This document shows, piece by piece, positions 42,648 to 64,000 of a DNA stretch of 64,000 nt. This stretch comes from Bythopirellula polymerisocia (GTDB lineage Bacteria > Planctomycetota > Planctomycetia > Pirellulales > Lacipirellulaceae): the NCBI RefSeq assembly GCF_007860015.1, contig NZ_SJPS01000004.1:317567-381566 (forward strand). The letters are read 5' to 3'. The notes under the pieces are model-generated. The model was given only the letters and a program-made list of their open reading frames with translations. It was not told the origin of the DNA and did no database searches. How positions within the stretch are numbered: position 1 is the first letter of the stretch; every line of letters starts with the position of its first letter. Position numbers and translations under genes: made by a program.

Positions 42648-43177
42648 TTTGCTATCTTTCTGGTTTTCTGACTTTGCAGATTTCCTGCGCTAAGTCGCCT
42701 CCCCCTCGAAACGGGTCTCGCCAGGGCTGCAATTGTTTTGAGTGTCTTTTGATGCATGACAGCACTTCAGATTTACCTCTTCTGGGCTAGTGGTTTTCAA
42801 CGCGGTGCTGGTCGTATCGATGGTAGCGACTAGACCCCCTGCGAGACGGCCTAAGACATTTAATGCTTGCTAGTTAGGGGTTCCCCGACTAACCTCAAAG
42901 GAGAGTCGTCGGACGAGTACTAGGGCACTGGAAGTTGACTCCCTCCCTGCTGTGGAGGGAGTTGGCTAATTGCTCGACTTCTTGCCGCGACAGACTCCCC
43001 CCTGAAGCGTCCTTGAGCTTCGCTTGCTTTCCCGATCGATCGGGGCAAGTGTTGGCTCACTGGTGACTAGGGCAAAATAATCGGTCCCGGGGTTGCGCAT
43101 TTTTGCCCTCCGGTGCACCGACGTGGACGGAGTCCGCGCGGGGCGAGGGGATGTATGAATTATGATTTATGAGTTTT

Positions 43178-43270
43178 GAGGCGCGAGGCGCTAGTTGCTG
43201 GTCATTGGAAATTGCTTATTCTTCCTAACCACTTCTTCTGACTAGCGCCTAACAACTAGCGCCTCGCGCC
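43178..43270. repeat. GCGCTAG-family inverted repeat upstream of NusG-like gene
   Basis: GAGGCGCGAGGCGCTAG at 43178 and its inverted counterpart CTAGCGCCT..CTAGCGCCTCGCGCC at 43241-43270 enclose a 38-bp centre. This is the best-defined free copy of the repeat that also occurs inside and at the ends of genes at 45.6, 49.6, 50.5, 61.6, 62.9 and 63.4 kb. Confidence 0.8.
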
Positions 43271-43336
43271 TTTATCACTCTCACAACTCACAACTCGCAA
43301 CTCGCAACTATCTTAAAACTTACCGACAATCCGCCG

Positions 43337-49681: not shown

Positions 49682-50590
49682 ATGCCCTACGTCCTCCTCT
49701 TCCTGATCGCCCTCGGCTACGCGCCGTTCCTGTATCTCCACTTCGAGCTGATGTGGAGCCAGCCGCAGTATCAGTATTTCCCCTTCGTGATCGGTGCCCT
49801 CGCCTGGCTCGCCTACTCCCGCACCTCCCCCAACCCCCAGCCCCCAGCCCCCAGCTCCAAACTCACCTTGCTCGGCATCGGTGTCTCCTGGCTCGTGCTG
49901 GCCGCGGCCACGTTTATGTTCTCCCCCTGGCTGGCCATGCTTTCGCTGATTCTGTTGTTCGGCGTGGGCATCTGGCATGTGAGCCGCACCCACACGATCA
50001 CCAACCCGTGGGGCCTGTGGTTGATCTCGTTCTTGTTGCTGCCGTTGCCGTTGGGGCTCGATCGCAAACTGGTGCAAGCCTTGCAGGGAATGAGCAGCCG
50101 CGTGAGCAGCTACATGCTCGACGCCCTCGGGGTGATGCACTCCATGGAAGGGAACGTCCTCCGCAGCGTGAACAAGGAATTCTTCGTCGACGAGGCGTGC
50201 AGCGGCATCATCTCGGTGATGTCGATCATCGCCTGTGCGTTGATCTACTCGGTCTGGAAGAATCGGCCGCTGGTACACCTCCTACTGAGTGTCGTGATCG
50301 CCACGCTGTGGGCGATGGCCCTGAACATCGCCCGCATCACGCTGATTGCCGTGTTCTACATCCAGTGGGGCATCGATTTGTCGGCGGGTTGGCAACACGA
50401 GACCCTCGGCCTGGTCCTGTTCCTGGCCGCCTTCTGCGGGGTGGTCGGCACCGACTTCCTGCTGGCCGAGTGCCTGGCCCCGATCGACTGGCGGACCTTG
50501 AGCGAAAGCCCGACCCGCTTGGTAAGATGGTTTAATTGGTTAGTAGGCGCGGGGCGCGAGTTGCGAGGCGCTAGTCAGGATGGGGAATAG
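49682..50590 (+). CDS. Exosortase (planctomycete XrtU-like)
   Basis: 302 aa membrane protease/transpeptidase with about eight membrane segments. The proposed catalytic triad is Cys173 (DEACSGIISVMSIIAC), Arg218 (MALNIARITLI) and His239 (GWQHETLGLVLFL), as in the exosortase family. It would cleave the PEP-CTERM tails of proteins such as those at 10181, 29923 and 34155 and probably link them to the polysaccharide. The next gene is its EpsI-like partner. The C-terminal residues after VRWFNWLV (GAGRELRGASQDGE) are encoded by the GCGCTAG repeat. The ATG follows CACAACTAACAACTA with no Shine-Dalgarno. Confidence 0.88.
   Translation: MPYVLLFLIALGYAPFLYLHFELMWSQPQYQYFPFVIGALAWLAYSRTSPNPQPPAPSSKLTLLGIGVSWLVLAAATFMFSPWLAMLSLILLFGVGIWHVSRTHTITNPWGLWLISFLLLPLPLGLDRKLVQALQGMSSRVSSYMLDALGVMHSMEGNVLRSVNKEFFVDEACSGIISVMSIIACALIYSVWKNRPLVHLLLSVVIATLWAMALNIARITLIAVFYIQWGIDLSAGWQHETLGLVLFLAAFCGVVGTDFLLAECLAPIDWRTLSESPTRLVRWFNWLVGAGRELRGASQDGE
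50540..50580. repeat. GCGCTAG-family repeat encoding the exosortase C-terminus
   Basis: TAGGCGCGGGGCGCGAGTTG followed by CGAGGCGCTAGTCAG; the free copy at 43178 has the same words. It lies within the coding frame and is followed 10 bp later by the stop codon. Confidence 0.8.
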
Positions 50591-51219
50591 AGGTTGGTGA
50601 TTTGTGATTCGTGATTTCTGATTTGTGATTGGGAATTTGACCATTCACCAATCACCAATCACCAATCACCAATCACCATTCACCACTCACGACTCACGAC
50701 TCACCCCTCACCCCTCACCCCTCACAACTTTTTCGTGTGCGGCGAGGCGTTAGGCCTCGGCAGTTGTCATTTAGTGCAAAAACTTTTTTTACAAAACAAA
50801 ACCCCCTGCTTTTCGGAGGGTCGAGTTTTTCGTAAAGCGTTATTCTATAAAGGTTTACGTCGCAGCCTGGGTCGTCGATTATTGTGAGTTTTGTCACACA
50901 AAACTCCATCACCGCGTTACAATCTCCCGCTCCGGCGAGGACGGATCTCCCACGGCATCGCTCGCGAGAGCGATTTGCAAAAGTTTCGATCCTCCCTGCT
51001 GGGAGCCTGTTGTGTGGCAAGTTCCATTATCAGGATCACGAAGAGGAGTTCCACAACGATTTTTGGGCCAGGTTTATTGGGGACAGGGGGCTAGGAATCG
51101 GAAGCTGGGGAGTTCTGATTTCTTATTTATGATTTATGGGGAATGCGCAATTGACTCACCACTCACCACTCACCACTCACCACTCACAACTCACAACTCA
51201 CAACTCCTAACTCCAAACT
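50591..51219. other. Intergenic region with degenerate tandem repeats and hairpins
   Basis: 629 bp between the exosortase and its partner. At 50595-50730 are runs of GTGATTTGTGATTC and CACCAATCACCAATCACC, giving an imperfect palindrome of tandem repeats. A perfect hairpin GAGTTTTG-TCACA-CAAAACTC lies at 50887-50907. A second run (ACCACTCACCACTCACC, then AACTCACAACTCAC) at 51151-51217 reaches the next ATG. No gene seen; the middle 350 bp could hold a promoter. Confidence 0.6.
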
Positions 51220-51900
51220 ATGAAACTCTCCCTCCTCATTGGAATCCCCTTCGCCCTGTTGGGCGCGCTGCAGATCGCTCCCTATCTGGTCAGCCGTCAG
51301 CAATCCGCTGTCGGCATTGCGGCTATCGAACGAGCCCACGAGATCGACGAAAAGACACTGGGCGAACTTCCCCTCGGTTGGCAAGTCACCGCCACCGAGC
51401 GCATCAACCGCGAAGAAAATCACTCCGAGGGGCACTACTCCACCACGTTTGACCTCCGTCAGTCCGGTTCACCTACCCAAGTCCGACTCTCGTTTGACTA
51501 TCCATTCATGCACGGGTGGCATCATCTCACCGGATGCTACACCATGGCTGGTTGGGAATGTTCGAATGAGAGGGTGGTCACGAATGAGGTGAGATCCGAT
51601 TGGCCCTATGTAAGAACGATTCTCCGTGACAAAGAAGGTCGTGAAGCGATGCTATTTTTCTGTATTTTCGATGCACAGGGAACTCCGCTCGCACCTCCCT
51701 CAGGAGATTTGCGTTTTGCTCTCTGGCAGAGAATCATGAAGACCGAAGTAACCTCCAGCTTGCCCACCTATTTTCAGGTTCAATTATTCACAGCCGCTGT
51801 CGGGGGCAATTCCGATACAGAGACTGAGTTGCTTCAGCTATTCCAAGAGACTAGAGAAAAAATCCGGACCTTCGTGGCCCATTCAGCTTCAGAAGAGTAG
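51220..51900 (+). CDS. EpsI-like exosortase partner protein
   Basis: 226 aa. One N-terminal membrane anchor (LLIGIPFALLGALQIAPYLV) is followed by a periplasmic domain. The region YPFMHGWHHLTGCYTMAGWEC (about 98-118) resembles the YP..GWH.L..CY...GW motif of EpsI/DUF3485 proteins, which accompany exosortases. The family is proposed to act in the same polymer-linked processing step; biochemistry is not established. The gene is downstream of the exosortase, separated by repeat DNA. Its C-terminus is polar and helical. It is the last gene before the AT-rich glycan-assembly block. Confidence 0.8.
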   Translation: MKLSLLIGIPFALLGALQIAPYLVSRQQSAVGIAAIERAHEIDEKTLGELPLGWQVTATERINREENHSEGHYSTTFDLRQSGSPTQVRLSFDYPFMHGWHHLTGCYTMAGWECSNERVVTNEVRSDWPYVRTILRDKEGREAMLFFCIFDAQGTPLAPPSGDLRFALWQRIMKTEVTSSLPTYFQVQLFTAAVGGNSDTETELLQLFQETREKIRTFVAHSASEE

Positions 51901-61548: not shown

Positions 61549-61846
61549 GTCGCGAGTGGTGACACGAAGAAATAGAACACAGATGAACACTGATTGGAAT
61601 GAATGAGGCGCGAGGCGCTAGTTGCTAGGCGCTAGTCAGAAGAAGAATACCTAAATCGAACAATTTCAACTTGATTTCCTCCTTTCCTTCAAACAACTAG
61701 CGCCTAGCGTCTTGTAACGTTCGGGGGGGAGGTAGTTAGTGGTGAGTCGTGAGTAGTGAGACAGAAATTACCGGTGGCTAGCGCCAATCCGCTCAGGAAA
61801 AGTTCCAGCCCTCAGTCCCTAGCACCCAGATCCTAATCCCTTAATC
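61549..61846. other. Repeat-filled junction between glycosyltransferase block and oxidoreductase
   Basis: 298 bp. It contains a fragment like the long palindromes (GAACACAGATGAACACTG), a GCGCTAG inverted repeat (about 61607-61720), and a single arm of the 39871 repeat (61769-61796, CCGGTGGCTAGCGCCAATCC). No gene seen. Confidence 0.7.
61607..61720. repeat. GCGCTAG-family inverted repeat
   Basis: GAGGCGCGAGGCGCTAGTTG followed by CTAGGCGCTAGTCAG on the left, and AACAACTAGCGCCTAGCGTC on the right, around an AT-rich centre of about 55 bp. Confidence 0.8.
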
Positions 61847-64000
61847 ATGCTGCAATTGTTACAAAATATTCGTTCCGGAGAACTCGCTTTGCATGAGGTT
61901 CCTGCGCCGGCGGTTGCACCTGGTGAGGTGCTGATTGCTAATCAGGCCTCTTTGGTGTCGGCGGGGACGGAGAAAATGGTCATGGACCTGGCGAAGAAGT
62001 CGCTGCTGGGGAAGGCGCGGGAGCGGCCGGATCATGTGCGGCGGGTGTTGGAGAAGGTGCACAATGAGGGGCTCGTGAGCACCTATCGGCAGGTCCGGCA
62101 GAAACTCGAGGAGCCGCTTTCGATGGGGTACAGCTCGGCGGGGGTGGTGATCGCCTGTGGGCAGGGGGTGCAGGACTTCAAGCCGGGGGATCGAGTCGCC
62201 TCGAATGGGCCGCATGCCGAGGTGGTGAGCGTGCCGCGGAATTTGTGTGCCCGCGTGCCGGAGAATGTGTCGCTGGAGTCGGCGGCGTTTGGCGTGCTGG
62301 GGAGTATTGCCCTGCAAGGGGTGCGGCTGACCCAAACCACGCTCGGCGAGACCGTGCTGGTGATCGGGCTGGGGCTGGTCGGGCAGTTGACGGTGGCCCT
62401 GTTGAAAGCTGCCGGGGTGCGGGTTCTGGGGGTGGATCCGGACGCGAGCCGGTGTGAGTTGGCTGTGCGGATGGGGGCCGACGTGGCGCGGCCCGACCTG
62501 GGGAGTGAGACGATTGAGCAGCTGACGGGGGGGCTGGGGGCCGACGCGGTCGTGATCACGGCCAGCACCAAGAGCAATGGACCCATTGAGATGGCAGCCG
62601 GCGCGGTGCGGCAGAAGGGGCGGATCGTGTTGGTCGGCGTGGTGGGGCTGGAGCTGGATCGCCGGCCGTTCTATTTCAAGGAATGTGAATTTGTGGTGTC
62701 GTGTTCGTATGGGCCGGGCCGGTACGACGCGAGCTACGAAGAGCGGGGGCAGGACTACCCGGCGGCGTATGTGCGGTGGACCGAGCAGCGGAATATTCAA
62801 GCGGTGTTGGATCTGATGGGGGCGGGGCGTCTGGATGTGGGGCCCTTGATTTCGCATCGGTTTGAGATCGGCGAGGCGGCGCGGGCGTATGAGATTATTG
62901 AGAGCGGGTCGGAAGCGTTTTTGGGAATGGTGCTGGAGTATGGGGGTAAGGAAGTTGCGAGGCGCGAGGCGCGAGGCGGGAAAGAAGTTGCGAGGCGCGA
63001 GGCGCTAGGCGCTAGCAATTCTACTCGCCACTCGTTCGGAACTTCCATTCGGTTGCGGGCTGCGAGTGGGAAGTCGGGGGGGAAATCTCGCTGTGGGGTG
63101 TTGGGGGTGGGGAATTTTGCGCGGGGGGTGATGTTGCCGGCGATGCGGGATGCGGGCGCGTTTGAGATTGCGGCAATTTGTAGTGCCAAGGGTGTGTCGG
63201 CAGCCCAGGCGGCGAAGACTTACAACGCGGAAGTCGCTTGCACGGACGAGGAGGAGATTTTTGGCGATCCTTCGATTGATACGGTGTTCTCGTTCACGCG
63301 GCACGACTTGCATGCGCGGCATGTGTTGCGGGCCATTCAGACGGGGAAGAATATTTTTGTCGAGAAGCCGTTGTGTTTGACGGTGGAGGAGTTGGGGGAG
63401 GTAGAGGGGGAAGTTGCGAGGCGCGAGGCGCGAGGCGGTAAAGAAGTTGTTAGGCGCGAGGCGCTAGGCGCTAGGGAAGAAGGGGGAGAGTTGAGTGCCG
63501 GAGGGGGGAGAGAAACACCTCTGGTGATGGTGGGGTTTAATCGGCGGTTTTCGCCCTCGGCGCGGTTGGTGCGGGAGCATTTTGCTCAGGTGGCGGCGCC
63601 GCTGACGGTTTCGATTCGGTTTAATGCGGGGGATATTCCTGCGGAGCATTGGACGCAGCAGGATGAGGAGGGGGGTGGACGCATCATTGGCGAGGCGTGT
63701 CATGCGATCGACCTGGCGACTTATTTGTGTGGTGCGCCGGTGGTGCGGGTGTTTGCTGAGTCGGTGGGGGGAGATCAGCCGGGGCAAATTACGGACGACC
63801 AGTGTTTTATAACCTTGCGGCATGCGAATGGGAGTATCTCGAACATCGCGTATCTGGCGGGAGGGGATCGGGCGTTTCCCAAGGAGCGGGTCGAGGTGCT
63901 GGGGGCCGGACGCGTGGCGGTGATCGATGATTTTCATACCGTGACGACGTACCACGGCGGCAAAAAGAAGGTCACGAAGGGGAAACAGCAGAAAGGGCAT
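61847..64000 (+). CDS. Two-domain oxidoreductase (MDR dehydrogenase + Gfo/Idh/MocA), truncated by window edge
   Basis: The frame is open for all 718 codons from the ATG at 61847 to the last base. Residues 1-365 form a zinc-type MDR alcohol dehydrogenase-like domain (GYSSAGVVIACGQGVQDFKPGDRV; VLVIGLGLVGQLTVALLKAAG; GADAVVITAS). Residues about 405-718 form a Gfo/Idh/MocA domain (GVLGVGNFARGVMLPAMR; FVEKPLCLTVEELG; MVGFNRRFSPSARLV; GEACHAIDLATYL). This fusion is known from polysaccharide loci, where it is thought to modify a nucleotide sugar. Two stretches of 22 residues (368-390 and 522-543) are not native: they are translated GCGCTAG repeat. GC content is far higher than in the preceding block. 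Confidence 0.88.
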   Translation, partial: MLQLLQNIRSGELALHEVPAPAVAPGEVLIANQASLVSAGTEKMVMDLAKKSLLGKARERPDHVRRVLEKVHNEGLVSTYRQVRQKLEEPLSMGYSSAGVVIACGQGVQDFKPGDRVASNGPHAEVVSVPRNLCARVPENVSLESAAFGVLGSIALQGVRLTQTTLGETVLVIGLGLVGQLTVALLKAAGVRVLGVDPDASRCELAVRMGADVARPDLGSETIEQLTGGLGADAVVITASTKSNGPIEMAAGAVRQKGRIVLVGVVGLELDRRPFYFKECEFVVSCSYGPGRYDASYEERGQDYPAAYVRWTEQRNIQAVLDLMGAGRLDVGPLISHRFEIGEAARAYEIIESGSEAFLGMVLEYGGKEVARREARGGKEVARREALGASNSTRHSFGTSIRLRAASGKSGGKSRCGVLGVGNFARGVMLPAMRDAGAFEIAAICSAKGVSAAQAAKTYNAEVACTDEEEIFGDPSIDTVFSFTRHDLHARHVLRAIQTGKNIFVEKPLCLTVEELGEVEGEVARREARGGKEVVRREALGAREEGGELSAGGGRETPLVMVGFNRRFSPSARLVREHFAQVAAPLTVSIRFNAGDIPAEHWTQQDEEGGGRIIGEACHAIDLATYLCGAPVVRVFAESVGGDQPGQITDDQCFITLRHANGSISNIAYLAGGDRAFPKERVEVLGAGRVAVIDDFHTVTTYHGGKKKVTKGKQQKGH
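62951..63016 (+). repeat. In-frame repeat insertion A in the oxidoreductase gene
   Basis: Two 33-bp units, each starting GAAGTTGCGAGGCGCGAGGC, placed between the two domains. The unit length is a multiple of three; they encode EVARREARGGK and EVARREALGAS. The surrounding sequence continues in the same frame. Confidence 0.92.
63410..63475 (+). repeat. In-frame repeat insertion B in the oxidoreductase gene
   Basis: 66 bp identical to insertion A at 62 positions. It encodes EVARREARGGK and EVVRREALGAR between FVEKPLCLTVEELG and LVMVGFNRRF, where family members normally have only a short helix. Confidence 0.92.

Follow-up and report, generated by a model that had tools for sequence, protein, structure and literature searches.

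Short dispersed palindromes that lie between genes and also in frame within housekeeping genes, where they add a peptide, are described for Rickettsia (the Rickettsia palindromic elements, RPE), Wolbachia and Methanocaldococcus jannaschii in the available text of PMC2229807 and PMC2996958. The RPE are given there as elements of 105-146 bp with predicted long stem-loops (PMC2229807). The accessible parts of PMC3733652 report that GTAG/CGTC-type repetitive extragenic palindromes (REPs) of O. terrae, Thauera and Rickettsia conorii include intragenic palindromes in uvrA, tRNA synthetase genes and repair genes, with double insertions per gene, TAG stops for adjacent open reading frames (ORFs) and clusters beside exopolysaccharide (EPS) genes. 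Heptanucleotide simple sequence repeats (SSRs), such as the cyanobacterial heptamers, GGGNATC in Xanthomonas and Nostoc and TAACTGA in Beggiatoaceae, are 7-bp tandem repeats and mostly intergenic according to excerpts of PMC4679880 and PMC4692102, and PARCEL is portrayed in PMC2996958, as far as that text was available, as a dispersed coding repeat with dyad symmetry. Here we describe two 66-bp inserts in a bi-domain oxidoreductase gene of the planctomycete Bythopirellula polymerisocia (Lacipirellulaceae), located in a 64,000-nt stretch of its genome (the window). The inserts probably belong, as in-frame copies, to a heptamer-built repeat family that occupies intergenic space as well as protein genes in this one planctomycete family.

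Two inserts in a bi-domain oxidoreductase gene

The window corresponds to G000:C4:317567-381566 of a draft genome of 6.14 Mb in 27 contigs, and positions are those of the whole window unless given as contig (C) coordinates. The oxidoreductase gene is a single open frame from an ATG at 61847 to a stop codon at G000:C4:381711-381713, encoding a product of 766 aa. In this product, Pfam/NCBIfam profiles place an ADH_zinc_N domain at residues 178-294, a GFO_IDH_MocA domain at 415-521 and a GFO/IDH/MocA C-terminal domain at 587-669. The features of the gene are:

61847..64000, + strand: bi-domain oxidoreductase gene (medium-chain dehydrogenase/reductase (MDR)/ADH_zinc_N plus GFO/IDH/MocA), running beyond the window end
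62950..63015, + strand: insert 1, 66-bp copy read in frame as EVARREARGGKEVARREALGA, in the interdomain linker
63016..63046, + strand: putative remainder of insert 1, made up of degenerate heptads and closing with AACTTCC (63040-63046), fold z -1.75
63409..63474, + strand: insert 2, second 66-bp copy with the in-frame reading GEVARREARGGKEVVRREALGA, flanked by FVEKPL and MVGFNRRF of the GFO/IDH/MocA domain

The initial annotation had placed two 66-bp copies 459 bp apart (start to start) in one open frame, which is borne out, while direct comparison corrects their identity from 62 to 63 of 66 positions, with mismatches at positions 31, 42 and 43. The identity ends exactly at both edges, and the flanks share none. 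Insert 1 indeed lies in the linker between the MDR and Gfo/Idh/MocA parts, i.e., between the ADH_zinc_N and GFO_IDH_MocA domains, and insert 2 was confirmed in frame at its proposed site, which falls between the GFO_IDH_MocA and C-terminal domains. The proposal that the frame used is the one avoiding TAG is likewise supported.

Each copy consists of two 33-bp halves, with half-versus-half identities of 28/33 and 27/33. This 33+33 structure had been taken to reflect a 33-bp unit, but the real unit is 7 bp and the 33-bp half is a second-order tandem of heptamers, as seen from the layout of copy 1, GGAAGTT-(GCGAGGC)3-GGGAA / AGAAGTT-(GCGAGGC)2-GCTAGGC-GCTAG. The true repeat unit of the inserts is the heptamer, (GCGAGGC)n plus GCTAGGC. 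Read inversely, the AACTTCC at 63040-63046 gives GGAAGTT, with which insert 1 begins at 62950, and the fold pairs both ends; the stretch of insert 1 may extend to this point.

Both stretches are absent from all seven full-length orthologs (L048-L054, 39-65% identical; 38 other genomes were searched), which at the level of sequence alignment identifies them as insertions. A search of the own genome for further copies returned full-length 66-bp matches at these two sites only, the third-best of 44 matches covering 31 bp at 87% identity. The oxidoreductase gene has 62% GC and a third-position GC skew of +0.53, compared with 53.6% and +0.02 for the window; by this contrast it may be a recent arrival.

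Heptamer arrays in conserved genes of the family

With at most one mismatch allowed, (GCGAGGC)3 was found at 24 places in 8 of 43 Lacipirellulaceae genomes, and the reversed-pattern control gave none. Across the order the pattern was confined to the same 8 family genomes, with 0 of 203 genomes outside the family containing it (the reversed control matched 3 outside genomes). The 24 places merge into 18 sites, a merging that was rechecked, and at 12 of these the array is read as in frame inside a gene with Pfam/NCBIfam domains, the assignment being our own reading of the domain scans. UvrA accounts for five sites in four genomes (G004, G022 with two sites, G055 and G014) and the oxidoreductase gene of the window for two. 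The others are in the carbamoyl-phosphate synthase large chain (CarB) of G019, a PGM/GlmM-like phosphohexomutase and an FtsK-like protein of G050 (the latter with a domain on one side of the array only), and the leucyl-tRNA synthetase (LeuRS) and acyl-CoA ligase of G022. The six remaining sites comprise two prepilin-like leaders (L263, L265), two arrays near gene starts (L267, L258) and two ambiguous cases (L249, L252). At L263, L265 and C2:312750-314162, the heptads form a charged leader right before a prepilin-like hydrophobic stretch; Pfam N_methyl was matched in L263 only, and L265 (no Pfam hit) and C2:312750-314162 were judged by eye.

Immediately before TTRPDT, LeuRS with its insert has 44 residues at a position occupied by 2 in the solved chain 2v0c. 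CarB has, relative to a solved chain, an additional stretch after YSTYE, between its two halves. An exact palindromic pattern was found at five places in 4 of the 246 genomes of the order, including UvrA of G004 and the phenylalanyl-tRNA synthetase beta chain (PheT) of G050, where the extra stretch lies within the B5 domain. The reading frame runs straight through palindromes in UvrA, acyl-CoA ligase and PheT. With UvrA, CarB, LeuRS, PheT and others as hosts, the analogy with RPE drawn in the initial annotation is sound and broader than first seen.

Further in-frame arrays in the own genome were found in an RNase HII-like gene, whose weak Pfam match ends just before the array, in a protein-kinase gene and in a FadD-like ligase. 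Within 2.0 Mb of this genome, chosen partly around known matches, 56 arrays were collected; by our own classification 8 lie in genes, 4 of them in the oxidoreductase gene, and the remaining 48 are mostly without a Pfam check. The open-frame count was higher for the in-gene arrays of this set (p 0.0014), in part by necessity.

The acyl-CoA ligase is present in 41 of 43 genomes (own copy C19:3075-4838, NF006754), and 30 loci were compared. Its loop (GPQVSPxY...AKI), which including the marked flanks ranges from 23 to 62 residues, contains heptad words in five loci, i.e., the own genome, G005, G003 (two successive palindromes), G013 (weak) and G022, and none in the other 25. The own and G005 ligases are 81% identical and carry their heptads at a common site, both as hairpins (z -6.65 and -5.39). 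The heptads themselves differ, with GCGAGGC/GCTAGTC in the own gene versus GCGAGTT in G005. This suggests turnover of the heptad units, with the frame and the hairpin retained.

Among 20 tandem UvrA genes (2 incomplete), the linker after 'WI' qualified in six, since heptad words were counted solely in linkers of at least 12 residues; they were found in the own genome, G055 and G016 (one word). Many family genomes encode such a tandem double UvrA of about 2400 aa besides separate UvrA genes, an example being L305 (C1:498000-506500).

Open and closed units and the intergenic relatives

An array of GCGAGGC encodes the heptapeptide ARREARG in all three frames and ASRLAPR antisense; the same cyclic heptapeptide is obtained in any frame because 7 and 3 are coprime. 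All six frames are open in an array of GCGAGGC. With at least three GCTAGGC units in tandem all six are closed, on both strands because CTAG is self-complementary.

The relatives found between genes are of the GCTAG type. In the window, the 17-mer GAGGCGCGAGGCGCTAG occurs at 43178 (+), 61605 (+), 62992 (copy 1) and 49651 (-), whereas any single 17-mer would be expected about 7e-6 times by chance if base frequencies were equal. Of the two free elements claimed earlier, the one at 43178 stands, and the other starts at 61605 rather than 61607. The repeat had also been said to occur free between genes; related elements are indeed dispersed there, but they are cousins of the GCTAG type, often with an inverted partner, and distinct from the 66-bp copies. 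The relevant features are:

61605..61712, + strand: intergenic GCTAG-type hairpin element upstream of the oxidoreductase gene, arms ~61606-61624 / 61694-61712, z -4.61
43171..43290, + strand: folded stretch that includes an intergenic GCTAG-type hairpin, with the 17-mer at 43178 and an inverted GAGGCGCTAG at G000:C4:360822, z -9.11
49682..50587, + strand: exosortase (EpsH) gene that carries CCCCAGC heptamers in frame (array at 49824-49864, read as TSPNPQPPAPSSKL)
50594..51225, + strand: heptamer arrays of other units (TGTGATT, CACCAAT and CACCACT types), a regional 7-bp habit

A longer form, GAGGCGCTAGTYGYTAGGCGCTAGTC, has 23 copies in the genome at up to three mismatches, and a near variant of it is found at up to two mismatches in 12 of the 43 Lacipirellulaceae genomes; the controls gave 0 in both cases. 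Across 84,980 bacterial and archaeal genomes the stricter pattern (exact 26-mer) gave no match, and a looser GCTAG-type pattern gave 16 stretches, all in Planctomycetota, including Adhaeretor mobilis and Bythopirellula. A first count of GCTAG-type copies (66, including duplicates, with 4 inside ORFs) was revised to 62 distinct copies after 7 matches near locus ends had been dropped. An inverted 10-base partner lies at most 150 nt away in 25 of the 62, and just 3 are located 60 nt or more within an ORF of more than 100 aa. The contrast between 12/18 GCGAGGC sites and 3/62 GCTAG-type copies within genes (Fisher p 1e-7, with a domain criterion for the former, a laxer ORF criterion for the latter, and copies within one genome not independent) is explained by the six-frame open versus closed units. 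It reflects a filter acting after insertion and is not evidence of targeting.

Some GCTAG-type elements also contribute to the ends of ORFs. The exosortase C-terminus (RELRGAS) is encoded by a GCTAG-type GAGGCGCTAG element, and at C4:383166 (L015) an upstream ORF of 421 codons takes its TAG stop codon from such an element. At the other end of the exosortase gene, heptads abut the ATG. By eye, the elements at L001, L003, L024 and L025 have longer common flanks (GGCCA..AAAAAT.GTCTC, with TATAAT in some), which suggests a larger repeat unit.

The 7-bp habit was also apparent from self-similarity over 1.6 Mb of the own genome, where lag 7 gave 19 arrays and lags 14 and 21 gave 11 each. Lags 4, 5, 6, 8, 10, 11 and 13 gave 0 or 1, lag 27 gave 5, and lags 12 and 30 gave 4 each. 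Thirteen of the 19 lag-7 arrays lie within 30 kb (C4:360-391 kb), alongside the exosortase, a glycosyltransferase and the oxidoreductase gene. The heptamer units of this genome include GCGAGGC, GCTAGGC, TTAGTGG, CACCAAT, CACCACT and CCCCAGC.

Of the 18 in-gene stretches folded, which represent 17 sites because insert 1 was folded twice, nine gave hairpins with z at or below -3.5, as did both intergenic stretches; this line was drawn post hoc, element edges were picked by eye, and the folded set comprises element stretches only, with no control genes.

Origin of the inserts and comparison with known systems

The reading of the inserts as members of a heptamer-built repeat family is supported directly by the absence of the stretches in orthologs, the in-frame reading, the recurrence in unrelated conserved genes, the restriction to one family in the sample and the palindromy of about half of the folded members. 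Its elements are tandems of 7-bp units, in many cases arranged as two arrays of opposite orientation around a short loop, and a one-base variation of the unit gives either GCTAGGC, closed in six frames, or GCGAGGC, open in six. Because an open array landing in any frame would yield the same cyclic heptapeptide, survival in a gene would need just three things: freedom from stops, an overall length that is a multiple of three and a location where an extra loop is tolerated. Insert 1 probably arose first, given its loose interdomain linker and the possible end at 63040 that inversely matches its opening. The 66-bp piece would then have been copied to the second site from within the same gene, since the genome has no other full copy. 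Ectopic recombination, template switching or some transposase are candidate routes. The encoded peptides are probably for the most part neutral, tolerated loops, and, judged from the sequences, should appear as extra loops in the proteins. A bolder version, in which the heptamer period itself admits the element to genes, the T/G change switches between the closed form typical of intergenic elements and the open form of genes, and the repeats constitute a distinct class of coding mobile repeats, seated in frame in genes of DNA repair and translation in this one family and with its own copying route, is possible, though we regard it as doubtful.

Several observations weigh against a mobile repeat family. 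The 10-mer GAGGCGCTAG is not commoner genome-wide than its reversed control (26 versus 39 exact matches); 13 of the 26 cluster in C4:360-399 kb, and just this clustering and the longer forms stand out. The window inserts fold weakly (z -1.75 for insert 1 and -3.34 for insert 2), so that the earlier label 'palindromic' suits some members of the family more than it does these copies. Nine of the 18 in-gene stretches have z above -3.5, with +1.21 for LeuRS, +0.75 for the GlmM-like protein and +1.28 for one UvrA. Many of the in-gene arrays are simple tandems, for which slippage alone would be a sufficient source. The acyl-CoA ligase loop also lengthens by other routes, as heptad-free loops reach 55 residues (G053). 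Just two of the five exact-palindrome places (UvrA, PheT) were placed in conserved genes, the others being L300, without a Pfam hit, and L303 and L304, in short ORFs only (with no domain scan of these two). Neither a target-site duplication nor a base-exact empty site was established, the nearest ortholog being just 65% identical. The element could not be linked to a mobilising enzyme: genes for Y1_Tnp occur in 42 of 43 genomes irrespective of arrays, and none of the six in the own genome lies within C4:360-399 kb. Finally, many of the compared genomes are drafts, with one genome per species.

Part of this evidence would fit a purely local origin, in which slippage within loose linkers generates the GC-rich heptamer arrays where they stand, as for heptanucleotide SSRs of other bacteria, without any transfer between sites. 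The prominence of lag 7 and its multiples, the lack of a clear hairpin in half of the folded in-gene stretches and the variable length of the UvrA and ligase linkers are all consistent with it. Slippage does not readily account for a longer motif dispersed across genome and family with an inverted partner in 25 of 62 copies, for two copies with 63 of 66 identical positions 459 bp apart in one gene between unrelated flanks, or for read-through palindromes in UvrA, ligase and PheT, and we consider a local origin alone unlikely. Less probable still is a REP/REPIN-like family moved by a REP-associated tyrosine (RAYT, Y1) transposase, i.e., a further GTAG/CGTC-type REP family. Y1_Tnp genes are nearly ubiquitous in the sampled genomes, and close parallels exist in the GTAG REPs within the uvrA genes of O. 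terrae and Thioalkalivibrio, in tRNA synthetase genes that harbour REPs and in GTAG REPs that lie beside EPS genes and give TAG stops (available text of PMC3733652). Around 63 GCTAG-type elements, on the other hand, a 160-nt stretch contains on average 0.54 GTAG and 0.54 CGTC, where 0.61 is expected, and 0.33 and 0.71 of their complements CTAC and GACG (values for this type only). REPs are moreover described as 20-40 bp stem-loops rather than 7-bp tandem arrays, and the element-rich stretch contains no Y1 gene. Strict REP membership was rejected, GTAG being present in 27 and CGTC in 25 of these 63 stretches, without enrichment.

That the Arg/Glu-rich peptides are selected as charged helical linkers with a role in the enzymes is improbable: the linker position of insert 1 and, in the prepilin-like protein of L263, heptads ahead of the N-methylation motif would suit such spacers, yet the peptide is found in only 1 of 8 aligned oxidoreductases and 5 of 30 ligases, and the same peptides recur in unrelated enzymes. 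An assembly error or a pseudogene is most improbable, even though the genome is a draft in 27 contigs and repeats are prone to misassembly, given a frame intact over 766 codons, domains on both sides of each insert and the same habit in other genomes. The pseudogene variant was rejected because of the intact domains on either side of the inserts. Integron attC sites were also rejected, the GTTAGGC/GCCTAAC words that are present being put down to the heptads as a by-product; a search for cassettes was not part of the analysis.

The heptamer-built family has consequences for how coding repeats are viewed. The best-known in-frame coding repeats are those of the intracellular Rickettsia and Wolbachia; REPs form a second case, and coding palindromes are reportedly found in nematomorph mitochondria. 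The planctomycete host lineage is presumably free-living. With multi-megabase genomes and hosts such as UvrA, LeuRS, PheT and CarB, the planctomycete case supports the view that neither intracellular life nor genome decay is required. It also offers, in well-known enzymes, loop insertions that form a natural series, together with a simple, testable rule on the repeats able to enter genes, i.e., those with a stop-free unit whose length is coprime to three. In the open-access literature searched (subscription papers were mostly outside its scope), no report of heptamer coding palindromes in planctomycetes was found.

In-frame coding repeats as such are already known from RPE and REPs, and the heptamer-built planctomycete repeat is a differing type. 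Like RPE, it lies both between genes and in frame in conserved genes, and is absent in orthologs (7 of 7 oxidoreductases, 25 of 30 ligases), whereas its body consists of tandem heptamers and half of its folded in-gene stretches are without a clear hairpin. With GTAG/CGTC REPs it shares insertion in uvrA and tRNA synthetase genes, a double insertion, a supplied TAG stop and a location near EPS-type genes; it differs in the lack of GTAG/CGTC enrichment around GCTAG-type elements, in the heptamer body and in the limitation of GCGAGGC arrays to one family in the order-wide sample. Its tandem 7-bp period, which stands out from other periods in the lag test, resembles that of heptanucleotide SSRs, yet the GCGAGGC unit is in frame in genes at 12 of 18 sites, several as inverted pairs. 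PARCEL, in contrast, denotes a tandem domain of 25 aa that is associated with membrane proteins, whereas the planctomycete repeats form 7-aa periods in housekeeping enzymes.

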